Positions 2,257-20,962 of a stretch of DNA of 23,865 nucleotides are shown piece by piece. The notes beneath the pieces are model-generated. The model ran no database searches. It was not told where the DNA came from and saw only the letters and a list, made by a program, of their open reading frames with translations. The DNA is from a virus: the IMG/VR virus record IMGVR_UViG_3300030061_003503, positions 501 through 24,365 of that record; one strand, given 5' to 3'. The position numbers and the translations under genes were made by a program. Position 1 is the stretch's first letter; every line of letters starts with the position of its first letter.

Positions 2257-5200
2257 TTAACCATAAATTATTTTATTATCACTACCCTTTGTTGGATTAC
2301 CACTACCAACTTTAATTTGATTCTCACCACCAGTTACTTTTACTCTATAGAATGAAGCACTTGAGTAGTCTTCATATCTTACATTTAAAGTTCCTGGATT
2401 TGTGTTCTGTGTTCCTTCAATCATTTGTTCTTTAAATGGTTGACTAAATTTGGTAATATGATTTTCTGGTAAAGTAATAGTACCATCAGAACCAGTTCTA
2501 AAGTATCTTGTTTTACCCATCATTCTACCTGTTTGGTTTGTATTCGCTCCACCAATTAAAGATTCATAACTTACATCTGCATGAACGCCTGTATCTATCA
2601 TTAATCTATTATGGAAATTTTTAGTATTTGAAAAATTAGAGCTATTTGATCCTGAATAAAACTCATTGTCACCAATAGCGTGAAATACAAATCTTGTATC
2701 TATATGATAAGTATTATACTTATCAGTAGCATTAGTAGAACCTGTATTAAAGTAATTTATAAAGTACACATCGTTTACACCTCTTCCCCAATTATCGTGT
2801 ATATTTACAAAAGATTTATTAGCGTGAGAAGCGTAATCAATAGAACCAGAATGAGGTAGAACCACAGTTGAACCTGAAAATGATGGTAGTGGTGATAATG
2901 AACCTGATTTAGGTCTTTCATAAGTTGTAGTGTTTGTAACATTAACACTAATTGAACCTGTTTTTGGTTGTTCATAAGTTGTAGTGTTTGTAATATTAAT
3001 ACTAACTGAACCTGATTTTGGTCTTATGTATTCCGATGTTAATGAACTTACAACTGGATTAATACTACCTGTTATTGTATTTGGATTTACTTCAACACTA
3101 TGTTTTTCATGTTCATATTTTTGTTTTTCTAATATGGTTGGTTTTATCTCAACACCAAAATTAGAATTTCTATCACTAAATGTTGAACGAGCTGGAACTA
3201 ATGATTTTATTCCCTCAGCTATAGAACTATTAAACATACTTTCATGAGCTCTTATGAATTTATTAACATCAACTTCTATTGGATGAGCATTAAAGAAATT
3301 TTCTCTAAAAGTATTAAACTCATCATATGATTGAGAATAATAATTAATTGGATTTCCATATAATTTTTCTAAATTAAATCCACTTAAATTATCTAAAATA
3401 AAATTATCAACGAATGTTTGTGGTGAACGATATAATTCCAACTTAGGTGATGTTTTAAATAATGGTTTACTATTTTCTTGTGTTAATGGTTTAACTGATG
3501 ATTGTAATGGACTTAAATCAGAAACAATATTTTTTCTTGGATTTATTAAAATTGTATTATCATTTCGTTTAGAAATATTATCTTGTAATGTTAATGTGTT
3601 TTTATCCACATAGTCAAAATTATAAACAGAACCTGTAAAAAATGTATCAGCTTTTTTAGTAAAATTATAATTAGAATAATTTATTGTTGGTGAAGAATCA
3701 AAAATTGTCATATTTTGAGTCGAAGATGATATTGCATGAGAAACACTTGATGTTAATTCAGTTTCTAATCCATAATTTTCATTTAATTTAAAATGATAAA
3801 CCAATTCATCTTTGTGAGAATTAATTGTATTACCAACAGTGGAAAATTTATTCAATGTATGTTGTCTGAATTTAGATGTACTTAATGCAGTAGCCCAACC
3901 TCTTAATTGGGATAAGGAACCAGTTAAAGTTTCACCAACAAATAAGTTAGATGATGATAATGGATGTCTTGAACCACTTGACATCCAATTTTGATTAGCT
4001 AAATTATTACTATCTATACTTATCCCACCACTAACTGACATTGTTATATAATTATAAGTTTTTATAGTTTTACTATCTTGTAATGAACTGTGTAATCTAT
4101 ATTCATTTGTAATATTTGTTGATGTGCTACTAGTCATTCTTTGTAACATTACATTCCACAATTGACCATCTAAAATTTTAGAATAATTAGTTGACATTGA
4201 TACAGCACTACCAGTAATGTTTAATGAACCAGTTTCTGAATTATTTAATCTAAATTCAAATGATGAACTAACTCCATCTGAACTTGGAATTAATCTTAAA
4301 TCCCACAAATCTTCATTACCACTACCACTACTATGTAAAATTGTTTGTGTTTGTGTTGTATCAGTATGTTTATAAACAAATTGAATTGTATTTAGATTTG
4401 CACCATTCATCCACCAGTCTAAATTTAAAATTCTATTATCTTTAGAACCAAATCTATAATTATGTAATATTTTTCTGTCTGTGTTAAATGAAAAACTTCC
4501 ACTTACACGACTTAAATCTAAATCAACTCCACTACTACTTGGTGGGGTATTTAGAAAAACTCTTGGATTTGATTCTTCTGTTGAACCACCAAATTCTTGA
4601 AATTCTAAAACATCAGGTGGATAACCATAAGTGTTTAAAAGTGCTCTAACTGAATTTTTTGTTCCTTTTGATTTGTAAATGTATATTAAATTATTAAGTG
4701 TTTTTCTCCAAGTATTATTTTTTATATCATCAATTGAAGTAACACTTGTTAAATAATTTCCTAATGTATTTTCTAAACTTCCGCTAAATGGATTAATAGC
4801 TTCCCAACCCATATTTGATAACAACATTGGTAATGTATTATCAGGTGGTGAATCAGTTTTCTTATATCCCCTTTTATGAATTGTACCCATTGAATCAATA
4901 TGGTTTCTAATTAAATCATATTGTTCACCTTGTAGATTTAAAAAGTCTTTCATATCATTGTAGTCGGAACTCTCTTGAATGTAAAGAGGTAAATTGTTTT
5001 CAAATGAATGTATGTTATCAGTATCAAAGTTTTCTGCTTTTGTTAACATATCATTATACCAACTAGTCCACTCAGTTGAAGTTGTTTTATAAACATTATC
5101 AAATGGTAATACATTTGTTGGATTCTGTAATGTGACTTTAACATCAGTCATAAATGATGATGTTACTTCACCCAAATCACCTTGAAAATAAATCCTAAAT

Positions 5201-7098
5201 AATTCACCCGCTGGCATACAAGATCCTTTAAATGGTGCACCACTTTGTGTTACAACAGTTGTTGGATACCTACCTGTAGAATCTTTTATTTGATAAGAAC
5301 CTGTTTTAACACTTCCATTTAAAATCGTTATACTATCATCAGAAACAAAACCTTCACCACCAATATCTGATGGTAAATCTGCAAAATCTATACCTTGATT
5401 TGGTATCCAATATGATTGAGAAGTTTGATAAATAAATCTTCTATATTCACTTCCTGTAATTGTTGGAACTTGAAGAGAATTTTGATAAACTACAGATTTT
5501 GGTAATGGTATACGAAGTCCATTAATATTATCTCTTTGTCCAATTTTATCCCATTTTAAACCTGTACTTCCACCAGCAGATATGATAGCATCACCTTTTA
5601 ATACAAATGATAAATAAATTGAACCACTATAATTAAAAAATGGTTTTTCTTGTACACGATAAGTATTAGAAAATAAATCAATTGTAGAATCTACTCTAGG
5701 ATTAAGTGATGAATCGGTTGTATGTTGATAAACAACATTAAAGCCATCGTGATTATTTAAAACTACTAAATCATCATTACCAACAGGTGCTCTATTTGTG
5801 TGTGCATAATTTTTTAAAGCAGGAGCTGATGCTGTTGATTCACTTTGAGCATCATAGTATAAAAATCTTTCATAAGGTGAAAATGTTTTTATTTCTTTAT
5901 TAATTTTATCAAATAAATTTTTTCTGTTTTGAATTACAAAAGTTGAATCACCATTGATTGAACTTGATATAGAAAGTGAACTTGATATATCAGAATAGTA
6001 AGATTGAATAGTTGTAATTTTTGTGTTAAAATTTTCTAATTTCTTTTTAGCAGAACCAAAAAATGTATGGTTAGCAAATTCATTAAAATCTGTATTTAGA
6101 TTTGGATAATTGTATTCACTGGATGATATTAAATTATCTAATGTAAGACTATCAAGTGAACCACTTAATTCATCATAGTTTTCAAATCCAATATTATTAC
6201 CATCAGGATTTATCCAATTCTCTTGTGCATCTGGTAATAAACCATCACCAAAAAATACATCAGGTACATCAGAAAAATAAAATATGTCTTGAGTTAAAGT
6301 TGTTAGAACTTCTTCTTCAAGTGTAACCATTGATAGATTTCCAACATTAGTTGGTAATGGTTCGTAAAGTTTTAAAATTAAAGATTGATTATCCGAACCA
6401 TCCGTTACTTTATCGAATTGATAGTTCATTATTCTAATATGGTCACCAGTTCCAATATTCAATACATGTCCGAATTGATATTTGGTTAATGTTTGATTAG
6501 GAGTGCCTAATTTTCTATTAAGTGCTTCGGTTATAGTATCAATCGTACTTGAGTTATTTTCAATGGGTGATAATTCACCATTTGGATTTAATAATTTTAA
6601 ACGAACTTCTTTTCTTGAAGTTGAAATTTGTTTTATAATAAATGGATAAATATTTTCACTTGATGGATTTAATTGTCGTAAAAAATCAATTTGTAATTTG
6701 TAATCACCCTGAGGTAATTCAAATTCATTAAATATTTCATTTGGTTTTATATATATATTTGCAGTTATAGAAGTTCCTTCACCACTATATATTTTGAAAT
6801 CATTTGATTCTGAAGTACCCACTTGTCTTACATTAAATTCATCCAATCCAGCACCAAATGGTGATGTATTTATACTAAAAGGAGTTCCAGAGGTGTAAGG
6901 GGTAGAATAAAATATAGCTTGACCATTTACACCTTTAGTTTCGTCCTCTAAAGTAACAATATTATTAATTGCTTCAGTTGGATAAATGGTTAAACGCATG
7001 TAATGCATCATCTGTACATTACTATTAAAATTACCAGCTTCTTGACTAATAACTAATTCTTTATCTTGTTGATTAAATTCAAATTCAAAATCAGGCAT
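2257..7098 (-). CDS. Giant baseplate-type protein with tail protein I/gp7-like core and LamG-like domain (1613 aa)
   Basis: This 1613-aa protein appears modular. Residues 1-290 are beta-rich (for example LKLYEPLPTNVGNLSM), as in phage virion proteins. Around residues 713-836 it reads LPMLLSNMGWEAINPF, then WRKTLNNLIYIYKSKG, then TKNSVRALLNTYGYPPDVLE. This resembles the 'R.lI.n...i.r.KGT..ai..lL..yG' signature of P2 gpI, the structural counterpart of T4 gp7 in the wedge. Residues about 886-1073 look like a LamG/concanavalin-type sandwich (NLDWWMNGANLNTIQFVYKH near its start, LSQLRGWATALS near its end). Residues about 1340-1400 hold an 18-aa tandem repeat. The last 120 residues include FRTGSDGTITLPENH. 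The start overlaps the preceding stop as TAATG with GGAG upstream. Since gp6 and gp25 are present and no other gp7/gpI candidate is seen, a wedge role is reasonable. Coding status is certain; the gp7/gpI match is a recalled motif, not a search result. Confidence 0.65.
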   Translation of the reverse strand: MPDFEFEFNQQDKELVISQEAGNFNSNVQMMHYMRLTIYPTEAINNIVTLEDETKGVNGQAIFYSTPYTSGTPFSINTSPFGAGLDEFNVRQVGTSESNDFKIYSGEGTSITANIYIKPNEIFNEFELPQGDYKLQIDFLRQLNPSSENIYPFIIKQISTSRKEVRLKLLNPNGELSPIENNSSTIDTITEALNRKLGTPNQTLTKYQFGHVLNIGTGDHIRIMNYQFDKVTDGSDNQSLILKLYEPLPTNVGNLSMVTLEEEVLTTLTQDIFYFSDVPDVFFGDGLLPDAQENWINPDGNNIGFENYDELSGSLDSLTLDNLISSSEYNYPNLNTDFNEFANHTFFGSAKKKLENFNTKITTIQSYYSDISSSLSISSSINGDSTFVIQNRKNLFDKINKEIKTFSPYERFLYYDAQSESTASAPALKNYAHTNRAPVGNDDLVVLNNHDGFNVVYQHTTDSSLNPRVDSTIDLFSNTYRVQEKPFFNYSGSIYLSFVLKGDAIISAGGSTGLKWDKIGQRDNINGLRIPLPKSVVYQNSLQVPTITGSEYRRFIYQTSQSYWIPNQGIDFADLPSDIGGEGFVSDDSITILNGSVKTGSYQIKDSTGRYPTTVVTQSGAPFKGSCMPAGELFRIYFQGDLGEVTSSFMTDVKVTLQNPTNVLPFDNVYKTTSTEWTSWYNDMLTKAENFDTDNIHSFENNLPLYIQESSDYNDMKDFLNLQGEQYDLIRNHIDSMGTIHKRGYKKTDSPPDNTLPMLLSNMGWEAINPFSGSLENTLGNYLTSVTSIDDIKNNTWRKTLNNLIYIYKSKGTKNSVRALLNTYGYPPDVLEFQEFGGSTEESNPRVFLNTPPSSSGVDLDLSRVSGSFSFNTDRKILHNYRFGSKDNRILNLDWWMNGANLNTIQFVYKHTDTTQTQTILHSSGSGNEDLWDLRLIPSSDGVSSSFEFRLNNSETGSLNITGSAVSMSTNYSKILDGQLWNVMLQRMTSSTSTNITNEYRLHSSLQDSKTIKTYNYITMSVSGGISIDSNNLANQNWMSSGSRHPLSSSNLFVGETLTGSLSQLRGWATALSTSKFRQHTLNKFSTVGNTINSHKDELVYHFKLNENYGLETELTSSVSHAISSSTQNMTIFDSSPTINYSNYNFTKKADTFFTGSVYNFDYVDKNTLTLQDNISKRNDNTILINPRKNIVSDLSPLQSSVKPLTQENSKPLFKTSPKLELYRSPQTFVDNFILDNLSGFNLEKLYGNPINYYSQSYDEFNTFRENFFNAHPIEVDVNKFIRAHESMFNSSIAEGIKSLVPARSTFSDRNSNFGVEIKPTILEKQKYEHEKHSVEVNPNTITGSINPVVSSLTSEYIRPKSGSVSINITNTTTYEQPKTGSISVNVTNTTTYERPKSGSLSPLPSFSGSTVVLPHSGSIDYASHANKSFVNIHDNWGRGVNDVYFINYFNTGSTNATDKYNTYHIDTRFVFHAIGDNEFYSGSNSSNFSNTKNFHNRLMIDTGVHADVSYESLIGGANTNQTGRMMGKTRYFRTGSDGTITLPENHITKFSQPFKEQMIEGTQNTNPGTLNVRYEDYSSASFYRVKVTGGENQIKVGSGNPTKGSDNKIIYG
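2900..3027 (-). repeat. 54-bp in-frame tandem repeat (18 aa) in the 1613-aa protein
   Basis: Two full 54-bp units (2900-2953 and 2954-3007) and a partial third (3008 to about 3027) lie head to tail. They encode the 18-residue units SGSVSINITNTTTYEQPK and TGSISVNVTNTTTYERPK, followed by SGSLS. A diverged 19-residue copy beginning TGSINPVVSS lies just N-terminal of them. The two full DNA units differ at only about five positions, so the last duplication looks recent or is kept homogenised. The Thr/Asn/Ser-rich repeat with a Pro-Lys hinge looks like an extended beta stalk or linker between folded parts of a fibre-like protein. Confidence 0.9.
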
Positions 7099-10000
7099 TA
7101 CAATGCTCCATCTTTATTTCCAGTTTTCTTTGGAACTTTTATAAATGAATCTCTTCTCATATCTTGACCTTTTTTAACTTTTTTAATTTTATAGTCACCA
7201 ATTAATAGTCCTTTGTTTGTATTACCACTCGTATCCAAAATAGATTTACCAGTTATATTTCCAGTATTTAATTCTAATTTACAACTTTGTTTTAATTCCA
7301 AGTCCTGATTATCAGTTATAAATATCTGTCCAACTGAACTTTCCTCTGGAAATTTATTTATATCACCACTCCAATAATTATAATCATCGTATTTACTTAC
7401 AACTGAAGCGATTGGTATATTATCTACATTAACCCAATCTTGTATATCTTCTGGATATGTATATTGAGTTGGAAACGGTACATTATCTACAAATAAGTAA
7501 TTAACTAACGCAGATATATCTGGTCTTCCGTTGACAATCCATGTAGTTATATCTAAAGTTTGAATAGCTCCGTCATTATTAATATCAAACTCATCAAAAT
7601 ATTTTGGAAATGGTAAAGTTGATAAATACTCTGGTGTTGTATCTGTAAATAAATTTGGTGGTTCATCTGAATCAACTATTTCAATATTTTTAATATCAAA
7701 TGTTACCCCAACAGGTGCTTTTATTAAAAGTATGGATTGTTCATCTGATTGAGCGGTGTATGAGGCTTCAAGGGGATAAAATCCATTTAAAAGAGAACCA
7801 TTATATATATCAATATGTGATAATTGAAAAAAAGTAGAAGTGGTTCTTTCATCCATATCAGTTCCATGTTGAAATTCAATTTGAGTTCCTTCTGGTATAT
7901 CATCAGGACTTTCCCATTCATCATATATGTTAATTTCAAAATATAATTTATAAGTATGATTTCTTATGGTTTGAGCATAATCTGTAGAATATTCTATAGT
8001 CTCAGTAAAATTTGATGATGACCATCTAAGTCCATATAATTCATCATAATACCATTGTGATAATAAATTATTACCAAGATCAATACAACCCAATGGTAAA
8101 CCATATTCGTCCCCAGCTATAAAACCATATGGTTGGTCAGATAAATCAAATAAATTTGTTTCTAAGTATTCTTCTTGTGTTTCAGTATTAAAAAAGTAAC
8201 TTGAATTTTCTTGTGGAGAACTAAAAATAATGTCTTCAATATTAATTAATTTATTTATACCATATGGTTTGTTAAAATATCTACATTGTTCTAAATCCAT
8301 TGTTTCAATATTTTTCCCCATTTCATCATTATCCAAATCATCAACTAAAAACTTTTCATCAATAATATCAAATTCACCTATTTTACCACCACTCAATGTA
8401 TCTTGAATACTTTTTTTATATTTTGAATCATCACTAACACCACCAATGATAGGTGTTGTGAATGGCCATGGAATTGTTGTGTAGTTATTACCACCCACCT
8501 CACTAAAGTCTGGATATCTATTTGGTGGTATATCTAAATAAATTCTTGATGTACAGAGTTTCCATCTTCCAACTTCAAAATCTGGAGAATCATCTGCTCC
8601 ACCATTACCATCAAAAACACTAAACATTATGTATTTAATATTTTTAATTCCAGGTGTGGTATAAATATTATTTAATTTAGGTATATCATAATTTAAACTT
8701 GAATTATAAACAAATGTAAGCTTATATAAATTTTGATTTTGTAATTCTAAATAATCAAATACATTTTCAGGTCTTGATTCTAACCAATCATCAATGGTTT
8801 TAAATTTATCATCTGTATCATTCCAATCAATTACAAAATAATAATATTTTAAATCAATATTTGGTGGTAAAACATTACCATCAGGATTTACAAAATCAAT
8901 ATCAAAAGTAACATTCAATGGAGCAGATGCTCTCATAATTGAATTAAAACCAATATTATAACTTTGTAAATCTACATAATTGTAACCAAGTTGATTATTT
9001 TGACTAAATCCAAATGTTGTTATTGGGATGAAATCAAGATGTCTCGATGATGCATCAGAACTATTAGAATCCTGTATGTTATCAAGTTGTAGTTTTGGAT
9101 TCAAAAAACCCACCCATTCAAAATCTTTTAAGGTATTTTCATTTATTGAATTTGCAGGTAAAACTTCAGATATAATATTTTCATAATTTGAAACACCTGG
9201 AAAAATATTTTTAACACCAGCTGATGTGTTAATGTTTAATCTAAGATTGGTTACTCTCCAAGCAGCTTGCTGAGCTCCACCTCCACCATCGCCAGTTCTT
9301 GAGGTGGTAGCTGAAGTGAAATTAAGTTGGGTAACTTTACCTACATCGATAGTACCTACTTTATCAAATAAATCAGTATTACTGATTTTAAAAACATCAT
9401 ATCTTCTTTTTCTCTCATCAGTATTAATTGGCCAAAACACTTTTTTATGACCTTTCATATAAATAACAATATAAATAGGATTAATTTCTCGCTGATTAAA
9501 TAAACTGGTTAATAAATCTGCTTCAGCTATAGTACTAAGCTCAAATGCTTCAGGTAAATCATCTACTGCCATAGTCATTCCCTCAATATCCCCCAGTTCA
9601 ACATTATCTGAATCAGAACTGAAGTTAGAAACTATTGGAGTTTGTTCTACCTCAACGATGTTTCCAATATCAGTTCCTTGAGATTTATTACCAAATCCTT
9701 GTGAATAAAATTTCCACTCGTCTTTCATTTTATTTTTTATTGTACTATATCCATCTTGCGATGGATCACCTCCATAAGCTTTTCCAGAAAATATCCAACC
9801 AATGATATGATTACTTTTTGTCGTACCATCCACACCAGTGTTGGAAATATATAAATTTTCAATATGTATACGAGAGTCACCTTCAAATTTAAGATTCTTT
9901 TCAATAATAGCTTCATTTACTTCATCACCAACACAATTAGTAAATAAATCTTTATTTTGAAACTTATCATTATTTTTTGGTAAACCAGTTGAATTTTCAT

Positions 10001-10877
10001 ATTCATATTCACCATCATCTTGATTATCATCTTGATTAAAATTATATTGACTCCTATCACCCAATTTAGGTTGATTGACTATTATTCGTTTATCATAGGA
10101 TATTAAAGGATTAACCACTGGAATTGGTTGTGGTAGTGATGGTTCACCAGTTCCACCACCTGTTGGTTCATCAATTGGAGGAAGAGGAGTATTTGGTGGA
10201 TACTCTTCAGTAAGTATAAAATTCAATATTTCATTACCAATATCAGGTCTTCCAACTTGATTCCAATTACTTACGTCTCTAATAGTTAATTCACCATCAT
10301 TGTTTCCATCATAATCTTCAAAATAAACTGGATCTGAAGAACCATCATATCCAGCTAAATCACCAAGTATAGACTCTTCAGCAGATTGAAGAGTATCGTG
10401 AAGCTCTACTAAATCACCTGATGTATGATAACCAGCACTTGTTGTTCCAACTCCCCTTTCTACTTCTATATTAACCAAAGGATTATCAGTACTGAAACTT
10501 GGATAAACACCAATAACATAAGTGGGATATGATTCTTCTACTATCCATCTTGTAATCTTTATTATTTCAGCATCTTGACCAAAATTTGCATGTATTGCTA
10601 AATAATAATCATTGAAGAAGTCGTCTGTGTTAAAGTTTTGTTGAGAACCAAAAAATGTATTATCAGTAAATTGTTGATAAGGAGAAAAATCTAGTGAACT
10701 TGGATTAGATGGATCTGCAGAAAAATTATAACCAATGTAAGCATTATAATAACCACCAACCACAAGTAGAGTGGATGAAGGATTATAAAAACTCGTTGGA
10801 AAATTAGAGTTATTATATAATGATGGTTGAGTTGAATTAACCAATCCAGATAAAGTAGTTTGTCCAATAAAAGCCAT
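7098..10877 (-). CDS. Giant modular virion protein with dockerin-like Ca loops; paralogue of the 1643-aa protein (1259 aa)
   Basis: A 1259-aa acidic protein (rich in Asp, Asn, Glu) with no signal peptide. Residues about 136-160 contain VERGVGTTSAGYHTSG, matching the 'tRG..GTtaa.H..G' motif common in phage tail and baseplate proteins. Residues about 184-214 carry a dockerin/EF-hand-like loop and helix (DGNNDGELTIRDVSNW, then GRPDI), followed by a Pro/Gly-rich linker near 230-260. Residues about 655-810 look like a degenerate PKD fold (VIDWNDTDD, then IYTTPGIKNI) ending at TPIIGGVSDDSK. Next come DLEQCRYFNKP (about 864), a CBM-like sandwich (about 960-1075), and a second dockerin-like unit (about 1090-1131: DINNDGAIQTLDITTW, GRPDI). 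The C terminus, SGNTNKGLLIGDY through DGAL, resembles that of the 1643-aa neighbour. The ATG overlaps the preceding stop as TAATG, with GGGG upstream. I infer a peripheral baseplate or fibre component that binds calcium and perhaps glycans. Confidence 0.6.
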   Translation of the reverse strand: MAFIGQTTLSGLVNSTQPSLYNNSNFPTSFYNPSSTLLVVGGYYNAYIGYNFSADPSNPSSLDFSPYQQFTDNTFFGSQQNFNTDDFFNDYYLAIHANFGQDAEIIKITRWIVEESYPTYVIGVYPSFSTDNPLVNIEVERGVGTTSAGYHTSGDLVELHDTLQSAEESILGDLAGYDGSSDPVYFEDYDGNNDGELTIRDVSNWNQVGRPDIGNEILNFILTEEYPPNTPLPPIDEPTGGGTGEPSLPQPIPVVNPLISYDKRIIVNQPKLGDRSQYNFNQDDNQDDGEYEYENSTGLPKNNDKFQNKDLFTNCVGDEVNEAIIEKNLKFEGDSRIHIENLYISNTGVDGTTKSNHIIGWIFSGKAYGGDPSQDGYSTIKNKMKDEWKFYSQGFGNKSQGTDIGNIVEVEQTPIVSNFSSDSDNVELGDIEGMTMAVDDLPEAFELSTIAEADLLTSLFNQREINPIYIVIYMKGHKKVFWPINTDERKRRYDVFKISNTDLFDKVGTIDVGKVTQLNFTSATTSRTGDGGGGAQQAAWRVTNLRLNINTSAGVKNIFPGVSNYENIISEVLPANSINENTLKDFEWVGFLNPKLQLDNIQDSNSSDASSRHLDFIPITTFGFSQNNQLGYNYVDLQSYNIGFNSIMRASAPLNVTFDIDFVNPDGNVLPPNIDLKYYYFVIDWNDTDDKFKTIDDWLESRPENVFDYLELQNQNLYKLTFVYNSSLNYDIPKLNNIYTTPGIKNIKYIMFSVFDGNGGADDSPDFEVGRWKLCTSRIYLDIPPNRYPDFSEVGGNNYTTIPWPFTTPIIGGVSDDSKYKKSIQDTLSGGKIGEFDIIDEKFLVDDLDNDEMGKNIETMDLEQCRYFNKPYGINKLINIEDIIFSSPQENSSYFFNTETQEEYLETNLFDLSDQPYGFIAGDEYGLPLGCIDLGNNLLSQWYYDELYGLRWSSSNFTETIEYSTDYAQTIRNHTYKLYFEINIYDEWESPDDIPEGTQIEFQHGTDMDERTTSTFFQLSHIDIYNGSLLNGFYPLEASYTAQSDEQSILLIKAPVGVTFDIKNIEIVDSDEPPNLFTDTTPEYLSTLPFPKYFDEFDINNDGAIQTLDITTWIVNGRPDISALVNYLFVDNVPFPTQYTYPEDIQDWVNVDNIPIASVVSKYDDYNYWSGDINKFPEESSVGQIFITDNQDLELKQSCKLELNTGNITGKSILDTSGNTNKGLLIGDYKIKKVKKGQDMRRDSFIKVPKKTGNKDGAL
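7106..7109 (-). promoter_or_regulatory. Shine-Dalgarno inside the 3' end of the 1259-aa gene
   Basis: The minus strand reads GATGGAGCATTGTAATGCC. The codons GAT-GGA-GCA-TTG-TAA end the 1259-aa protein as D-G-A-L-stop, GGAG provides the ribosome binding site for the 1613-aa gene, and TAATG joins the stop and start. The same layout occurs at the end of the 1643-aa gene, where the codons encode N-G-A-F. Confidence 0.75.
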
Positions 10878-13800
10878 TAAAACGCCCCATTCTGTTTAGA
10901 TGTTTTGAATATACTTTTTAATTTATTTTTTTCCACCCTTAAAGTTTCTTCATCAAATTTAGGATTAAAATCTTGAATTGATAAACCATAATTTTTATTT
11001 CCACTTTTATCATTAAAAACTTCAACATCATTTTTTTCATTAACAATGTTTATTAATAAATTTTTATTTGATTCTTTTTCATCAGTTATTGGGCCATTTA
11101 ATGGAAATAATATTTTATTATTTGGATAAGTATGAGGTAATACATTTCCATTATCATCTGTTTTAACCTCTAAAAATCTACCATCCAAACCATACTTTGG
11201 TAATACAGGATAATAAGGAATATTTTCATTTTCATCTGGTAACCAATCTTGTTGTGAAAAAATATCTATAAATTCATCACTCACTCCCTCTCTATTGAAA
11301 ATAGAATAATTTTGAGGAATAATGTTTTTCCAATATCTTGGATGAATAGGAACACCAAAATCTGTTTCTGTGTTTTCTATAATGGAATCTTCGATTGGTG
11401 CTGGAGCTGTTGTAACAGGTATGATTATTTCTATAACTGATTGAGGTGGAATATTTAATGATATACCTGATTTCATATCTGACCAAGTTGCATCGTCATC
11501 TATACTTTGTTCAAACCAATATAATGTTACAAGTTCTGGATGAGTGAATTGTTTACTTGTTGCAGATTCATTTACTATCTGAATCCATTTTGGGTTATTT
11601 GGTGGTGGTGTGTATTCTTCAATTTCGTTTCGATAATTAGATAAATCAACATCTGTAAGAGAACCAAACCAATCAAATCCTTCATAATAAGTTGCTGTAC
11701 CATCATTTGATGATTTTACAAACAATCCATCTATAGAGGTATTGAAATAACTTGGATTGAAAAATTCTACAATTGTACCAGGTATGAAATCTTCACCTAT
11801 TGTTTCCTCTATGTCTTCTGTGTCTTGTTCATTAAGAGTTCCTTCAAATCCAAATAATTCCCAAATTGATTTTGGTTCATTGTAATATTTTACATTTGTT
11901 AAATCACAATCTCCAATTCCTTTTCCTAATTCTTCTTTTATTGGTGAGATACCATTGTATATTATTTTGTCTGGCTCAACATAAGTATCAGGTAATATTG
12001 GCCAATATATACCTTCTACATCATCTTCGGGTATGAGTGTGTTACCACCAATTAACATAAATGAATAAGTTTTTCCCGTTTCAAGTCCATCATTTAATAA
12101 ATTACCAACCCAAGGATCTATATCAGGAGGCATATTGATGGCACGAGCTGCAACTGCACCATCACTTCTATCAATCCTTATTACTTCCATTGGTATATTA
12201 TCTTCATTTATTTCTAAATCTTGAACTGGCCAAACTAATGTTTGATTATTAAAAAGATTATATGGATTAGCTAATGATTGAATTGCATCCCAATAAAATC
12301 CATCAACATTTACATTAAATCTATAAGTATTTCCTGTTACTAATGTTAGTAATGTTCCTGCAAATCCTACATCTTCAATGTACAAGGTACTCAAATTATT
12401 TTCATTATCCGTTATTGCAAATATACCCTCTGTGGGTGCAGCTGGAAAATTAGGGTTACCATTATCATCAAATAGATTTAAATCAGGGCCTGGCCATTCA
12501 AGGGTATTATATGTATCATAAAATGGATCACCAATTGTCCCCATATATAATAAATAAGGAGGTACTGAATCACCAAAAACAATTCTAGGAATCATATAAC
12601 TTGGTAATACTTCTAAATCAGAATCACTTTGGTTTTCCATTTTTAAAAGAGCTAATTCAGTTTTTAACTTATCACTTTTGTTTTTAAACTCTATACTTAT
12701 TTTTGGTCTTGGTATTGTGTTGTATTTTATATCCGAGATACTACTCCATTCATTTACATAATCAGGATATATCCAATTAGGACCACCTGTATCAATTCCT
12801 GTTCTAAGTTCAAATAAAAATGTTCTAATGTCTGGTCTACCAGCTGCTGGGTCGTCAACATAGACGACTTTACCATACCAAAGTAGTTCATCTTCAGTAA
12901 AATCAGAAGAAAAATTATCGTCAATAAGACCATTTTGATTAATATCAAACTCTTCAATGTATTTTGGAAATGGTAAATTTGATAAAGTTTCTATCTGTTG
13001 ATTCATATCTTCTGGAGTATAATCATCAGGTAATGGTTCAAAATCATTATTTATAAAATCCTCTATATTTCTTAATTCTTCAACTTGTGTGTCGTCATCA
13101 GTTTCTATTTTATTCAGAAAACCAAGTTGTCTTTTTATTGATTTATAATAATTACTTTGTTTTGATATTCCACCTATGATTGGTACAGTGCTTTTATATG
13201 GAATAAATGAATAACCATCACTTCCAAAATATTGAAAATCTTCATCCAATCCAGGATTAACATTAATTCTTAATTTAAATTTTTTATTATGTACAACACC
13301 TTGTATTTCACCTTTATTATTAACTTTTACTCGCATCATCAGTCCAGTAACTTCAAACACACCATTGGTTTCATATGTATGATATAATGCTTTTTCTTCA
13401 TCTATTTGTTCAGGTTTAGATGTAAATTCATTTGGTGTTCCATCACCCCAATTAACATCATAGATATAAAATCTACCTTCTTTAAAATCTTGATAAATCG
13501 GTAGTCTTTCTACAAATGTTTCATCGGTTGGATATTGTGGATAAAAATAAAATTGAGCCTCCAATGGACCTATTGTATCTTTATATTTTTCAGGTTCTAT
13601 TTCTTTATCATAATATTTTGTTAAATCTGCACTACCATATTTACCAACAGATAATTTTTTTCTAACATCCACTTCAGGAATGAACTCATATGATTCAAAA
13701 CATTCAATGTCATCAATCAATACTCTACCTCTAAAATTATTTCCAGATTGTAAGAATAAATGTAAATTACCCAAACCACCAGTTGGAAATTCAGATTCAT

Positions 13801-15808
13801 TATCAATGTATTGATCTATTCCAATTATACCTTGTACACCCTCTATAGTATCTGCATATAATCTAGCTATAATAAAACATTCATCATTTGGAGTAAATTG
13901 TCTTCCAGAACTATAACCTAAATCATTATCGTAACTCCATCTTTCCCCATCCCAATAAGTTACAAACATCTCTGGTTGTCTATTTTGAAAATCACCATCT
14001 GTCAATTCCACCCCTTGTCCTATATTACTACCAACATACATTAAATAAGCTTCAAGAAATCTACCATTAGATTGAAGTCCTGTTGTCTGAGCACCACCAT
14101 CTGGATCACCTAAAGCACTCCATATTGTCATATACCCTAAAGTTCCTGCTGGACTACATGTTACCGTAACTTCTTCTCCACTTGGAGAAGTCATATAAAA
14201 TTTATCACCTGGTATTAGTGTATCAGTTGATTTATAACCTGGAACTTTAAAATATATTTCACCTAGATTGTGGGTTGGACCTCCATAACCAACTTGATCT
14301 CCTGAAGCTATGGCCATATTATTAAGTAAAATTTCCACCTCTCCTTGATTGTATTCTTGGTTTCCTTGTTCACCAAATGTACCACCATAAGGAACTCCAT
14401 ATATTTCTTTACGATTTAAATGGTCTTCTGTTAAATTAAAATTAAATTCAAAAGTTTCCCATTCATTCATAATTGAATTTTGAAATCTATTCTGTCCACC
14501 ATTTGGAGAATATCTTTTATCCTCATAAGTATCACCATTGAAGTATCTATTTGAATTAAATTTACCACTTGGTAAAAGCTCTAAGTCAGAATTTGAAAAA
14601 TAATTTGGTAATGAATTAACACCTGTTTTTGGTGTTTCATTCCATTGTGATGGTAAAACACCAACTTCAACTTGAGGCGCATAACCTAAATCTTCATCTA
14701 ATGGATTTTGAAAAAACAACTCACTTTCATCAGCGTCAGAAATTGTATTACCAGGTGGAAAAACAAGTGTTGTTTTCATTTTAAATCTTATTTTCAATGA
14801 ACTGTATGGATTAATAATTTCATCATTGAATTTATCATAAATTTTTTGTACTTGATTCAATACTCTGTATTGATTATTTTCTTCTTTAATATCACTCTCT
14901 AATGGGAAATTAGTCTGTAGTTCACCATTCAGATGAATATCATCTTTATAAAACCAATTCCAAATATGTTTACCAGTCTGGTTATTACCATCAGTATATG
15001 CAAATTGTCGCTGATAAGCTTTATCCCATATCCATAAATTCATAAAACATAAACATCTATTATTTGAGTAAGCTTCATCACTTACTATCCAAGATGCTAT
15101 ATGAGGAGCATTACCCGCATCAAAGCGCCAAGTTTGGTAATCACCTTCACTAAAATTGTTTATTTCACCATCAGCTAAATCATCCTCTATATCTTGCTGT
15201 GTGATTGTACCACCTTGAAATCTTTCCATATACGCTAACCAACCACCACTAATGGTATAACCCGAGTTATTAATATAATCGTCAAAACCTCCCCAATAAT
15301 TAAAACCCGTTGAACCATCTATTTCCAATGATAAAGGAATGTAATTACATTTACCACCATAAGGTAAAAATCCTTGTTCATCTGAATTTGAAAAATCTAA
15401 TGTAGAAGAATCATATAAAGATAAAAATCTCCAATTATTTTCAGGTTGTACAAAAAACACTTGAGTTTGTTCATTTATTCCAGCTGAATATGTATATGAT
15501 AATAAGTTTTTTTCTATAAATTTACAATCACCATTTTTTACTAAATTTGTTTTTGTTATTCCTATAAATGGAGCTGAAGCAATATCTGGAAAATTATCAG
15601 AAGCAAAATTATCATCATCGAATGAAAACATACCTAATTCAATTCTACCATCTTGATTTGAATCTAAAAGTCCTTGATTTGTATTTTGAAAACTACCTGT
15701 ATTAATATCCATTCCACTATATGGGTCATATGGATTTAATAGTGTTTGTTCAATCGTAACACCATCAACACCGAATCCTTTTGAAAATGATTCTGAAAGA
15801 AAACTCAT
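10877..15808 (-). CDS. Giant modular virion protein with PKD, CBM-like and EF-hand-like units (1643 aa)
   Basis: The largest gene in the window. Residue about 49 begins a calcium-type loop, DSNQDGRIELG. Residues about 90-710 are beta-rich, with at least one CBM-like sandwich ending in GRVLIDDIECFESYEF (about 697), a closing strand typical of carbohydrate-binding modules. Residues about 735-880 form a PKD-like domain with the hallmark VNWGDGTPNEF (about 786) and HTYETNGVFEV, ending at VPIIGGISKQSNYYKS. Residues about 948-1000 hold a dockerin-like loop (FDINQNGLIDD) followed by an insert and GRPDIRTFLFEL. DLTNVKYYNEP lies near 1306, and the C-terminal tail is SGNKNYGLSIQDFNPKFD through NGAF. 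Several of these units recur in the 1259-aa protein in a different order. The start has AAGG upstream and lies 1 nt after the previous stop. A peripheral baseplate or host-recognition role is inferred; no enzyme motif was seen. Confidence 0.6.
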   Translation of the reverse strand: MSFLSESFSKGFGVDGVTIEQTLLNPYDPYSGMDINTGSFQNTNQGLLDSNQDGRIELGMFSFDDDNFASDNFPDIASAPFIGITKTNLVKNGDCKFIEKNLLSYTYSAGINEQTQVFFVQPENNWRFLSLYDSSTLDFSNSDEQGFLPYGGKCNYIPLSLEIDGSTGFNYWGGFDDYINNSGYTISGGWLAYMERFQGGTITQQDIEDDLADGEINNFSEGDYQTWRFDAGNAPHIASWIVSDEAYSNNRCLCFMNLWIWDKAYQRQFAYTDGNNQTGKHIWNWFYKDDIHLNGELQTNFPLESDIKEENNQYRVLNQVQKIYDKFNDEIINPYSSLKIRFKMKTTLVFPPGNTISDADESELFFQNPLDEDLGYAPQVEVGVLPSQWNETPKTGVNSLPNYFSNSDLELLPSGKFNSNRYFNGDTYEDKRYSPNGGQNRFQNSIMNEWETFEFNFNLTEDHLNRKEIYGVPYGGTFGEQGNQEYNQGEVEILLNNMAIASGDQVGYGGPTHNLGEIYFKVPGYKSTDTLIPGDKFYMTSPSGEEVTVTCSPAGTLGYMTIWSALGDPDGGAQTTGLQSNGRFLEAYLMYVGSNIGQGVELTDGDFQNRQPEMFVTYWDGERWSYDNDLGYSSGRQFTPNDECFIIARLYADTIEGVQGIIGIDQYIDNESEFPTGGLGNLHLFLQSGNNFRGRVLIDDIECFESYEFIPEVDVRKKLSVGKYGSADLTKYYDKEIEPEKYKDTIGPLEAQFYFYPQYPTDETFVERLPIYQDFKEGRFYIYDVNWGDGTPNEFTSKPEQIDEEKALYHTYETNGVFEVTGLMMRVKVNNKGEIQGVVHNKKFKLRINVNPGLDEDFQYFGSDGYSFIPYKSTVPIIGGISKQSNYYKSIKRQLGFLNKIETDDDTQVEELRNIEDFINNDFEPLPDDYTPEDMNQQIETLSNLPFPKYIEEFDINQNGLIDDNFSSDFTEDELLWYGKVVYVDDPAAGRPDIRTFLFELRTGIDTGGPNWIYPDYVNEWSSISDIKYNTIPRPKISIEFKNKSDKLKTELALLKMENQSDSDLEVLPSYMIPRIVFGDSVPPYLLYMGTIGDPFYDTYNTLEWPGPDLNLFDDNGNPNFPAAPTEGIFAITDNENNLSTLYIEDVGFAGTLLTLVTGNTYRFNVNVDGFYWDAIQSLANPYNLFNNQTLVWPVQDLEINEDNIPMEVIRIDRSDGAVAARAINMPPDIDPWVGNLLNDGLETGKTYSFMLIGGNTLIPEDDVEGIYWPILPDTYVEPDKIIYNGISPIKEELGKGIGDCDLTNVKYYNEPKSIWELFGFEGTLNEQDTEDIEETIGEDFIPGTIVEFFNPSYFNTSIDGLFVKSSNDGTATYYEGFDWFGSLTDVDLSNYRNEIEEYTPPPNNPKWIQIVNESATSKQFTHPELVTLYWFEQSIDDDATWSDMKSGISLNIPPQSVIEIIIPVTTAPAPIEDSIIENTETDFGVPIHPRYWKNIIPQNYSIFNREGVSDEFIDIFSQQDWLPDENENIPYYPVLPKYGLDGRFLEVKTDDNGNVLPHTYPNNKILFPLNGPITDEKESNKNLLINIVNEKNDVEVFNDKSGNKNYGLSIQDFNPKFDEETLRVEKNKLKSIFKTSKQNGAF
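10885..10888 (-). promoter_or_regulatory. Shine-Dalgarno-like GGGG inside the 3' end of the 1643-aa gene
   Basis: The minus strand reads AATGGGGCGTTTTAATGGC. The final codons AAT-GGG-GCG-TTT-TAA encode N-G-A-F-stop and supply a purine-rich GGGG ahead of the overlapping TAATG start of the 1259-aa gene. It is a weaker Shine-Dalgarno match than GGAG, so translational coupling probably contributes. Confidence 0.55.
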
Positions 15809-15809
15809 T

Positions 15810-17531: not shown

Positions 17532-17534
17532 AAT

Positions 17535-18671
17535 TTATTTCCTTTTCACTACAAATTCAAAATCATCATCAAACACTTGTTCTTGTCCATCATCATATTT
17601 TAATTTCAATAAAATTTTATAAACCCTATCAGGATAAAATCCATCTAAGTATTGTATAAAATAATTTGAGTCACTATCACAACTAAGTTTTGTATAACTA
17701 ACTCCCTCTTTATCTTCAAAGGGAACAATGAACTCATCAGTAGCAATATCTTTAATTGCATATGAACCACTACCATTGGTTATAAAGGAACCAGTTACAT
17801 TTTGAACTGATGTATTAAAAGTTTTTTGAATGTATCTTTTTCTAGCACCAACTCTAAACTTAACTCTCTCACCTACTTTATATTCCTCCCTTAAACCTTT
17901 CATATATAAAAAGTTATCAGCTAATCCACTCATTGTTAATTCATTTAATGAACCAGTAGAGAATGATGAATCATCCCACCTGACTTCGAGTTTAGGTGAA
18001 TAAATCGTATGTGTGTTTCTTGAGAAGAATTTTAGATGTCCGAAATGAGTTGAATCGGTTTCTTGTGTTCCATTAAATCTAATTAACATACCATAGTTTT
18101 GTTCTTCACCATTTAACCACATACGAAACATATTAGTTACATCAACATTTATATCAGGTGATTCATTTTCAAATACTTGTGCAGAAGCACTAACAGTTAA
18201 TACAGTAGTACCTGCATTAGCCCAAGCAGTAGCAGTTCCACCAATTGGATTTGTACGATTCTCCCAACTACACCCATCTGTATTTTTAGGATTGTCACTA
18301 AACTTACCACTACCTTCTTTCCAAGATTGTGATATTGGTTGAATAGCTAATCTGTAAGATGTATCGTTCAGTTCAGCATTACCTTCGGCTTCATAAAGTC
18401 TTAAATAAACTTTAGTACCACTTACACCAGTTGGTGATTTAGGTTGAGGTATAGTCCCATCAGCAATTGATTTAGATAACTCTGTAAATTCCGTTCCACT
18501 AAAATTAACTAATGCTCTTGTTGGATGATCAAATGTATTATTAAAAAATTCTTTTTTGACTTCAAGTATTTGGTCTCTTCCAAAGTTTTGGTCTCTAAAG
18601 GATTCACCTGTTATAGTTGACGAACCACTTGAAATCCAAGTGTCCTGTGATGGAAAAATAAAATGATGCAT
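17535..18671 (-). CDS. DNRLRE-type beta-sandwich protein next to gp6 (378 aa)
   Basis: Residues 1-235 match the DNRLRE-type sandwich: an N-terminal DTWISSGSSTI strand (10-20), FRDQNFGRDQILEVKK (25-40), ALVNFS (53-58), KVYLRLYEA (87-95), SQSWKEGSGKFSD (114-126), then DVTNMFRMWLNGEEQNYGM (177-195) and SPKLEVRWDD (225-234). The 'V...W.eg' and 'DvT..v..Wl.g..n.G..i' blocks are characteristic of this family, which is known from surface and carbohydrate-binding proteins. The remaining 140 residues form a second beta-rich domain ending DFEFVVKRK. The gene starts at a TAATG overlap with the gp6-like gene, behind a strong GGGAGG. I see no resemblance to T4 gp8 as I remember it. Its location between gp6 and the large adhesin-like genes suggests a baseplate connector or receptor-binding part, which is inference. 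Confidence 0.7.
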   Translation of the reverse strand: MHHFIFPSQDTWISSGSSTITGESFRDQNFGRDQILEVKKEFFNNTFDHPTRALVNFSGTEFTELSKSIADGTIPQPKSPTGVSGTKVYLRLYEAEGNAELNDTSYRLAIQPISQSWKEGSGKFSDNPKNTDGCSWENRTNPIGGTATAWANAGTTVLTVSASAQVFENESPDINVDVTNMFRMWLNGEEQNYGMLIRFNGTQETDSTHFGHLKFFSRNTHTIYSPKLEVRWDDSSFSTGSLNELTMSGLADNFLYMKGLREEYKVGERVKFRVGARKRYIQKTFNTSVQNVTGSFITNGSGSYAIKDIATDEFIVPFEDKEGVSYTKLSCDSDSNYFIQYLDGFYPDRVYKILLKLKYDDGQEQVFDDDFEFVVKRK

Positions 18672-20962
18672 TATCTAACCCTCCCTTGTATGTTTTGATT
18701 TGGATTCTTTAATTCAAAAACCGTTGGTGTTGATGTGTTTGGTGGTAATACAATTGTACCATCAGTAGATAGTGCAGTTTGAAAATTATATTTATAACCA
18801 TAACCAGCAGTACCTTCACCATTGTCTCCTGACTGGTCTACAAATCCACCATCTATTGTACCATCACCATCTATATCAGCTCCCTCACCAGATGAACTAA
18901 ATGAATAAGTGTATGTTGGTGAATTTAATACTTCATCATTACCAATATAATCTTCATATTGAGTCAATGTGACATGTCCTATTGAACGAACTCCTTCAAC
19001 GCCCATTAATTCAAATTCTAAATTAGATTTAAAAATGGGTTGATTGAATTGCATTTTTTCAATTCTAAAATAATCTTTTATTTTTTGTATACAATTTAAT
19101 TTAACTTCTTGTTTATTTGCATACTTTTCAGCTATTACATCAAATATAACACCGAAGTTTACAATGTACCCATCGTGGATTGCCACCACATCTGTCATTA
19201 ATTTAAAGTTTTCTAAATATCTTTTTATATTCGTTGTAAGTGTTAATGGTAAATTATCAGTTGTTCCCAATGCATTTGAATTTGCGTTACCAATTAATTG
19301 TTTTTTATTATTATACCCCAATACATAAATGTTTATTGTTCCCAATTCTAATTCTCTAGCTAAATCACTTAAAATTATGTCTGGTGTTTGTGGTGGTAAA
19401 TTATCAGAAACAGTAATATTATTAAGATAGCCAAAAATTGCAGTTATTATACCAGGTACATTATTACCTTGAACCTGTTCAGCAAATTCTGTACTTTGCA
19501 TATACTCTTGAACATTTCCAATTTGAGTATTAAGATTCCCAATAAGTAAATTCCTAAAGTTCAAAGTATCTGCAATATAGTCTTGTAGTGCGGTTAAATT
19601 GGACTCACCTGCAATTGTAGGAGCTTCTCTTGTCACATATGCTTTTGCAATATTTCCATACTTTGCTGGAACATTCAATACTCTAGCTTCATAATCTTCT
19701 TTAGTAACACATCTGTTTTGTGTTGTGAAGAACGCTTTAGCTCTTTCCTTTATTTCAATTGTATCCTCTTCATCTTTACCACCACGAGCTGGAGTGTTGT
19801 TTGTAACACTCGTTAATGTTGAAGAACCTAAAGTAGGTGTCGTGGTTGGTAAAGTTGTTATGTCACCAGCTTGAACATTTGAATTAATTCCACCACCAAC
19901 ACGATAAGTAATGGTTAAAGTTGTTTGATTTGGCGTTTCACCAAGTGTTGAATACTCATCACCCAACAATGGATTAATTGATTGATTTAAATCATTTGTT
20001 TGACCAGGTATTACAATACCAACTTGTTCCATATCAATAAAACCTTCATCAACAAGTTGTCCATCTTTTAATACTCCATTACCAAACACAAGTGAAGTTG
20101 TATTATCGTTATTTGTTTCACGAGTAAATCTTTTTGTTGTTGTGATATAAGTTAATGAATAAGGAACAGCTTCAATTGATGTATTTCCTTGAAAGTCAAC
20201 ATATGCAGATTCTCTGTTTATATCATCAGAATAATGAGTAGAGATTGGAACTTTATCTTGTGCTAAGAAATCCACTTCATACCAATTCTGATTATTTGAA
20301 TCCACGCAAGAAATAATGTCAACAACATTTGTATCAGGTATGGTAATGGTTTTAAATTTTTCAGGTATTCCCACTTGAAATGTAATTGTTTTTTGTGTCG
20401 CACTAACAGCTCTTGTGGTTCTTGATAATGTATATGTTGAAGCTAAACCACTAGCATCTGTTGTTCCAATTGTTTCAGTATCATTTGATTCTGTAATTCT
20501 AAAATCAATTGGTTCTAATGTTGTAAAAATAACATCTGAATTAACTGACGATACTAATTCAATACCAGCATCAAACATACCTGCATGTGAATAATCTACG
20601 TTTGATGGATCTCCACTTGAAACATTTACATTAGAGGTAAAAGTTAAATCTACAAAAGATGGAACGATTGGTTTTACTTTATAACCAAACATTTTAGCCA
20701 TTGTGATTATGTTTCTTCTTTCTTCTGCCAATGGTAATAACATCTCACGATATTGTTGGTCGATATAAAATGATAGTGTGTCACCAACATATGCATTCAT
20801 TTCCAATAACATCATACCAGGTGATGTTTCATTGAAATCACGATATGTATCTGGAAAATAAGATTTAGCATAATTCATTAATGATTGTTTTAATGCTGTA
20901 AAATCTTTATTTAAATAATTTACATTTGATTCTTTAAAATTTTCTTTACCATATGTTGGCAT
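18671..20962 (-). CDS. Baseplate wedge protein, gp6/baseplate J-like (763 aa)
   Basis: In T4 two copies of gp6 with one gp7 form the wedge core and close the inner ring of the baseplate. The N terminus here is characteristic: YLNKDFTALKQSLMNYAKSY (17-36), DFNETSPGMMLLEMNAYVGD (42-61), then LSFYIDQQYREMLLPLA. Residues about 393-430 carry the baseplate J/gp6 segment GGKDEEDTIEIKERAKAFF followed by RCVTKEDYEARVLN. The length of 763 aa is somewhat above T4 gp6 (660 aa). Residues about 694-708 hold an unexpected calcium-type loop, DIDGDGTIDGG, inside a Ser/Gly/Asp-rich C-terminal stretch, which could account for part of the extra length. The start has GGAG 8 nt upstream. It lies 13 nt after gp25-like and overlaps the DNRLRE gene by 1 nt. 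Identification as gp6-like is secure from the motifs. Confidence 0.93.
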   Translation of the reverse strand: MPTYGKENFKESNVNYLNKDFTALKQSLMNYAKSYFPDTYRDFNETSPGMMLLEMNAYVGDTLSFYIDQQYREMLLPLAEERRNIITMAKMFGYKVKPIVPSFVDLTFTSNVNVSSGDPSNVDYSHAGMFDAGIELVSSVNSDVIFTTLEPIDFRITESNDTETIGTTDASGLASTYTLSRTTRAVSATQKTITFQVGIPEKFKTITIPDTNVVDIISCVDSNNQNWYEVDFLAQDKVPISTHYSDDINRESAYVDFQGNTSIEAVPYSLTYITTTKRFTRETNNDNTTSLVFGNGVLKDGQLVDEGFIDMEQVGIVIPGQTNDLNQSINPLLGDEYSTLGETPNQTTLTITYRVGGGINSNVQAGDITTLPTTTPTLGSSTLTSVTNNTPARGGKDEEDTIEIKERAKAFFTTQNRCVTKEDYEARVLNVPAKYGNIAKAYVTREAPTIAGESNLTALQDYIADTLNFRNLLIGNLNTQIGNVQEYMQSTEFAEQVQGNNVPGIITAIFGYLNNITVSDNLPPQTPDIILSDLARELELGTINIYVLGYNNKKQLIGNANSNALGTTDNLPLTLTTNIKRYLENFKLMTDVVAIHDGYIVNFGVIFDVIAEKYANKQEVKLNCIQKIKDYFRIEKMQFNQPIFKSNLEFELMGVEGVRSIGHVTLTQYEDYIGNDEVLNSPTYTYSFSSSGEGADIDGDGTIDGGFVDQSGDNGEGTAGYGYKYNFQTALSTDGTIVLPPNTSTPTVFELKNPNQNIQGRVR

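Follow-up and report, generated by a model that had tools for sequence, protein, structure and literature searches.

Two giant genes lie side by side in the DNA analysed here, a stretch of 23,865 nt (the window; positions 501-24,365 of the metagenomic record IMGVR_UViG_3300030061_003503, which is 24,365 bases long), and the locus raises the question whether they are tandem paralogues whose modules were rearranged after duplication. The open reading frames, lengths and coordinates first given for the 1643-aa and 1259-aa proteins are correct. These genes are called A and B in the following, and the adjacent gene of 1613 aa is called C; L-numbers denote the loci of relatives. Relatives were gathered from IMG/VR (80 loci via gp6 and 6 loci via C), with A orthologues in about 39 loci and B orthologues in 26. 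The features of the window are listed in Table 1.

The operon is encoded on the minus strand in the order 415-aa protein, two small proteins, gp25-like protein, gp6-like wedge, 378-aa protein (p378), 573-aa protein, A, B and C. By its position and look, the 415-aa protein is putatively gp5-like, and the protein before the gp6-like wedge is a putative gp25-like protein, judged from its position. p378 has a match to CBM96 (E 7.4e-7), and the match of C to Pfam Tail_P2_I is below the cut-off (E 0.07). The window is a baseplate operon segment of an uncultured, probably marine phage. The 573-aa protein preceding A (window 15810-17531) has an EF-hand-like stretch of its own (EFDEDEDGRVDRDADG), which is absent among the matches of the module profile described below.

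Table 1 Features of the baseplate operon segment (positions of the window; residues of the respective protein)
Feature	Position	Strand	Evidence
Gene A, encoding a large protein of 1643 aa, probably of the virion; N-terminal half specific to A, C-terminal part common with B	10877..15808	(-)	ORF; orthologues; HHalign to B
Gene B, 1259 aa, half-paralogue adjoining A	7098..10877	(-)	ORF; orthologues; HHalign to A
Gene C, encoding 1613 aa with a Tail_P2_I-like stretch; probable baseplate wedge protein	2257..7098	(-)	Sub-threshold Pfam; homologues in immuto, Mel-JY01, LR756508
gp6-like baseplate wedge (Baseplate_J)	18671..20962	(-)	PHROG 219 E 1.3e-21; Pfam Baseplate_J E 3.5e-6
Region of A homologous to B, residues about 724-1643: PKD-like core, PIIGG, DL..KYYNEP, SGN tail, inserts between	10877..13639	(-)	HHalign
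Region of B homologous to A, residues about 626-1259	7098..9002	(-)	HHalign
PIIGGISKQSNYYKS block of A (PIIGG, A876)	13139..13183	(-)	Sequence; invariant columns
PIIGGVSDDSKYKKS block of B (PIIGG, B809)	8409..8453	(-)	Sequence; BLASTP E 5e-7
DLTNVKYYNE block of A (DL..KYYNEP, A1302)	11876..11905	(-)	Sequence; BLASTP
DLEQCRYFNKP block of B (DL..RYFNKP, B861)	8265..8297	(-)	Sequence; BLASTP
Insert in A after PIIGG, residues 901-1034, missing from six close relatives reading GFL..EKI	12707..13108	(-)	Alignment; DNA
EF-hand ("dockerin-like") module in A, residues 937-1028	12725..13000	(-)	Module HMM E 7e-23
EF-hand module in B, residues 1080-1155, canonical Ca-type loop DINNDGAIQTLD	7413..7640	(-)	Module HMM E 3e-27
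Second EF-hand module in B, residues 182-234	10176..10334	(-)	Module HMM E 2e-12
Variable loop of B, residues 888-1165: window-specific 180-aa insert and EF-hand module	7383..8216	(-)	Alignment with short-loop B of L031, L028, L025
Insert in A, residues 1078-1281, with "WPDL" module at residues 1185-1252	11966..12577	(-)	Profile match to relatives
148-aa insert in A, residues 1335-1482; relative in B of L118, equivalent loop	11363..11806	(-)	Pairwise; HMM
Extra N-terminal module of B, residues 1-180	10338..10877	(-)	Missing in six close B proteins; related to N-terminus of L139 A

All five blocks from which the original prediction derived a duplication are found in both proteins at the places it named. 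The PKD-like core lies at about residue 787 of A and 685 of B, and the SGN.N.GL tail ends in GAF or GAL. BLASTP of A against B detects the EF-hand/GRPDI block (E 3e-7), the PIIGG block (E 5e-7) and the YYN block (E 0.008); the tail is weak alone. The comparison of the two proteins by HHalign, which had been proposed as a check, establishes their homology: with family profiles from which inserts were removed, the A core (512-929) matches the B core (372-776) at 98.7 % (E 2.9e-16). As controls, comparisons of A and B with C and with six further families of the operon reach at most 1.6 %, and A against reversed B reaches 0.4 %. No homology was found between the N-terminal halves (HHalign 0.2 %). 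Together, these profile comparisons indicate that the postulated paralogy of the adjacent genes A and B holds for the C-terminal halves and fails for the N-terminal ones; tandem paralogy over most of the length was rejected. A WGDG..HTY PKD pattern is recognisable by eye. Pfam PKD gave no match in A or B of the window and reached 13.2 bits in the relative L033, against a gathering score of 23.5, and a sequence search of the PDB with the A and B profiles yielded none.

The order of the blocks is identical in both proteins in the HHalign alignment (PKD-like core, PIIGG, DL..YYN, SGN tail), which establishes their collinearity. What differs is the EF-hand stretch. It is absent from six aligned close relatives of A, in which GFL is joined directly to EKI; the insert boundaries rest on MAFFT alignments of uncultured contigs. 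Among relatives of B, the module is located in the same loop as in the window in L010 and inside the PKD-like region in L001 and L025, and there is none in L031 and L028. Since the insert is present or absent in relatives of A and B, and at differing loops, the apparent reordering is one mobile EF-hand insert that changes place, and the backbone is not rearranged. The differing block order described earlier came from counting this insert as a backbone block.

Two alternative histories of the backbone were weighed against these data. The model first put forward, in which the backbone modules were truly rearranged after a tandem duplication, would account for the five common blocks and for an EF-hand block that precedes YYN in A and follows it in B. 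Without the insert, however, the order is the same, the close A relatives have joined flanks at A's site, and among B relatives the module sits at different loops or is missing; rearrangement is refuted for the blocks of the window itself, and we regard it as very unlikely. If A and B were instead unrelated by descent, their similarity would stem from common inserts and low-complexity acidic sequence. The unrelated N-terminal halves and the low identities of single sequences are in line with such an origin, but the signal survives removal of the module region of B (98.5 %, E 3.3e-15) and is lost in the reversed and other-gene controls, which renders it the least probable of the readings considered here.

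A tree of the common blocks (28 sequences each) recovers A and B as reciprocally monophyletic, with a support of 1.0 for A and 0.78 for B, as expected for a single duplication before diversification. On this topology the duplication is old and predates the sampled phages, and module exchange looks more recent. From the proposed tandem duplication with subsequent module shuffling, an old duplication of C-terminal halves is retained, together with gain, loss and exchange of inserts in fixed loops; a rearrangement of the duplicated blocks is not.

The commonest insert is a single EF-hand unit of 75-100 aa with the pattern LPFPxYFEEFD...W...GRPDI. GRPDI-bearing EF-hand stretches of the window are found at about 939-1027 in A and at 1080-1155 in B, with an extra one at 182-234 in B. 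The canonical 12-residue Ca loop is present in 17 of 47 modules, which suggests that calcium binding may be lost in most of them; within the window, B 182 and B 1080 have this loop and A 937 does not. Similar to dockerin type I and EF-hands, the module has one D.[DN].[DN]G.[ILV]...D loop followed by a helix. Unlike in dockerin, the motif is single and is flanked by conserved LPFP and GRPDI stretches that are foreign to dockerin. An assignment to dockerin type I was rejected, as one motif is present instead of two duplicated F-hand motifs and the Pfam Dockerin_1 score (E 0.075, 13.7 bits) is below the cut-off of 22.9. In Pfam the matches stayed below the cut-off, and in the PDB they were marginal. 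The AlphaFold2 models, which are mediocre overall (pLDDT 67 for L010 B and 60 for L010 A), contain confident beta-rich regions; the EF-hand module in the B model (661-742) is helical at moderate confidence, and the common C-terminal parts are of low confidence, largely below pLDDT 50. Fold searches with the A model against viral structures and with the B model against PDB and viral structures returned no match at E 0.001.

The module profile matched 32 of the 35 contigs searched. Its positions and its occurrence across genes are established for 27 non-redundant cassettes having A, B and the start of C: the module is found in A in 15, in B in 16 and in C in 7 cassettes, at several different loops, the sampled phages being related to each other so that these counts are not independent events. 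Two cassettes, L113 (= L028) and L132 (= L089), have no copy. C of the window is without the module, and L031 has it in C and in neither A nor B. Outside of A, B and C, matches in the 35 contigs are confined to one divergent phage, L140, for which neither A nor B was detected. Here an 821-aa protein (3276-5741) at the A/B locus contains the module, as does a protein of 1704 aa (13755-18869) downstream of C. A few genes, namely A of L126, B and C of L130 and C of L133, are split into two overlapping or adjacent ORFs, by sequencing error, frameshift or real fission.

For 27 of 45 modules the nearest neighbour is found in the same gene (16 expected, p 0.001), and for the other 18 in another gene. 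This excess, combined with the cross-gene neighbours, indicates that the loops are partly inherited and occasionally refilled. The best cross-gene pair, A of L057 and B of L001, shares 56 % identity over 116 aa, linker included (E 1e-39), at non-equivalent sites, and the two modules are 76 % identical in DNA over 257 nt. Similarly, the modules of L130 C and L136 B have 73 % DNA identity over 281 nt. Modules of the same genome resemble each other no more than those of different genomes do (0.64 vs 0.66 identity, permutation p 0.90), which speaks against intragenomic gene conversion of modules; by the same comparison, exchange within a population pool appears to fit better than recent local duplication. 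No relative of the module was confirmed in bacterial or archaeal genomes. At the 5' edge of the module (TAT TTA xxx ACT TTA CCA TTT CCA), the choice among synonymous codons varies less than in the background (TTA in 40/43 Leu codons, p<0.001; CCA in 34/39 Pro codons, p 0.002), which is not seen in the 3' half, and the A and B modules of the window have 49 nt at 92 % in common at this edge.

Other readings of the module were considered. As a virion docking adaptor ("dockerin"), it would be position-independent, so that presence matters and place does not. Despite its varying position, the module is present somewhere in A, B or C of 25/27 cassettes, L031 has it in C while lacking it in A and B, and there is a precedent in phage 0305phi8-36, where domains repeated among virion proteins were proposed to be anchors (PMC2147016). 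However, independence predicts about 23.4 cassettes with a module and about 3.6 without, and L028 and L089 are the two without, so that an obligatory module is not supported; a docking role is unlikely, with an outside chance of being correct. A slightly slimmer chance is given to a related scheme, in which a common in-frame plug-in pool, moving among the three neighbouring genes, would include the EF-hand unit as a position-independent docking or calcium-switch unit, with its DNA-conserved 5' edge as recombination handle. The module might also be a selfish in-frame DNA element tolerated in coding loops, like the Rickettsia palindromic elements, given its many positions, its clean insertions and the synonymous codon conservation at its 5' edge. 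Such elements are characterised by palindromic or structured RNA and by insertion into unrelated genes, neither of which was found here: the one copy that was folded has no unusual RNA structure (z -0.68), and the module is limited to A, B and C save for the one divergent phage. The protein motif is moreover kept while the DNA diverges, and a selfish element is very unlikely.

At least four further insert types are found in both A and B: a CBM4_9-like domain, the "WPDL" module, the 148-aa domain and an N-terminal domain. The CBM4_9-like domain occupies two loops of A and one of B, with 49 % identity over 168 aa between L129 A and L123 B. "WPDL" occurs in all three genes (A of the window, B of L001, C of L133); the stretch of A preceding it (1098-1185) is similar by eye and has no match to other copies. 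The 148-aa insert of A is 30 % identical to its relative in L118 B over 138 aa (pairwise E 4e-17). CBM60 and HIHPDG inserts were seen only in A, each at one loop; Pfam CBM60 is found in 2/22 A members (best E 5.6e-10) and is absent from A of the window. The HIHPDG insert (68 aa, HIHPDG..MEGG.HN..GG..GHDFFD) is histidine-rich and located in the A loop after YYN in L112, L113, L115, L116 and L076.

The N-terminal region of A varies among the relatives. A Hint/intein-type domain is found in N-terminal extensions of L033 (residues about 92-254) and L052 (274-436), and by eye in L064. It scores 35.7 bits for PT-HINT (cut-off 27.7), starts with Cys, ends with His-Asn before Ser and has Gly-rich surroundings; it could self-splice or cleave. 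The N-termini of A in L033, L041, L048, L006, L068 and L054 have a histidine-rich motif around HNxDGHHHHxHxH that is possibly metal-binding. The A protein of L132 (= L089; L132:8074-19155) reaches 3693 aa through some 2290 additional residues at its N-terminus, and it matches cadherin/Ig-like domains weakly. GCTDPxAxNYxxxAxxDDGSC repeats are located in the N-terminal region of A of L041, L048 and L060, and also in L120 A; they resemble repeats of Bacteroidota surface proteins and would be a hint to the host.

In a tblastn search of a collection of 50,697 records, no homologue of A, B or two of the inserts was found in named phages, and viral contigs scanned with A alone or with single inserts as query gave nothing that was confirmed. 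In one relative, the portal and terminase have their nearest counterparts in Microcystis phage Mel-JY01 and Flavobacterium phage immuto, at about 48-54 % identity, and Rhodothermus phage RM378 is the next named phage for the portal (34 %, tblastn). These similarities suggest a far-T4 lineage near immuto and a host among the Bacteroidota, probably a marine one. Like the window phage, immuto and Mel-JY01 have homologues of gp6, p378 and C. In contrast, they are without A and B; the interval between p378 and C encodes a single protein, of 413 aa in Mel-JY01 and 112 aa in immuto, with no detectable similarity to A or B. A search among relatives for one ancestral gene at this locus, as suggested in the original prediction, therefore found none, and A and B look like lineage-specific additions.

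Taken together, we assign a probability of roughly 0.7 to the reading that A and B are scaffolds near the baseplate that show exchangeable modules in permissive loops, drawn from a pool common to A, B and C. Both would be large accessory proteins, encoded within the baseplate operon of far-T4-type phages that probably infect marine Bacteroidota, and would be located on the baseplate or tail tip with the modules displayed at the surface, as their gene neighbourhood suggests. Their common part would go back to an old duplication of the C-terminal half of one gene, or to a common C-terminal half joined to two N-terminal halves, after which the backbones would have diverged with their order kept. 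Permissive loops are placed at the N-terminus, after PIIGG, before IYNG, after YYN, after NREG and inside the PKD-like domain of B. Recombination among related phages would put in, remove and swap small modules in these loops, with one pool supplying A, B and the N-terminal region of C. Some modules resemble carbohydrate-binding modules (CBM60, CBM4_9), and the exchangeable modules most likely bind carbohydrate or calcium. The displayed modules may bind host-surface glycans in a Ca2+-dependent manner, and module swapping may tune adsorption. Given where the genes lie and the CBM-type inserts in relatives, a host-range role is plausible.

With conserved backbones, fixed loops and a pool serving three genes, the question of which module occupies which loop becomes countable and testable, in a phage group that is uncultured and seen in many metagenomes. 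The arrangement suggests that a virion surface can be re-equipped without altering the assembly scaffold.

Domain shuffling in phage tail proteins is already known, and phage receptor-binding and baseplate proteins show domain mosaicism (Smug et al. 2023, PMC10684548). Common fragments in differing virion proteins and an association with tail and baseplate functions are shared between those cases and the present locus. Under the rule of that study, contemporary mosaicism is a fragment of at least 50 % identity in otherwise differing proteins, and the module pair of L057 A and L001 B falls within it. Unlike those cases, three neighbouring genes here draw on one pool and receive its modules in fixed loops of conserved backbones. 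A second likeness, by description, is with Bacillus phage 0305phi8-36, whose virion proteins contain paralogous domain families proposed to form an anchoring system (PMC2147016): small repeated domains are spread across several large virion proteins in both. There, the domains are common within one genome, whereas here their position varies between close relatives.
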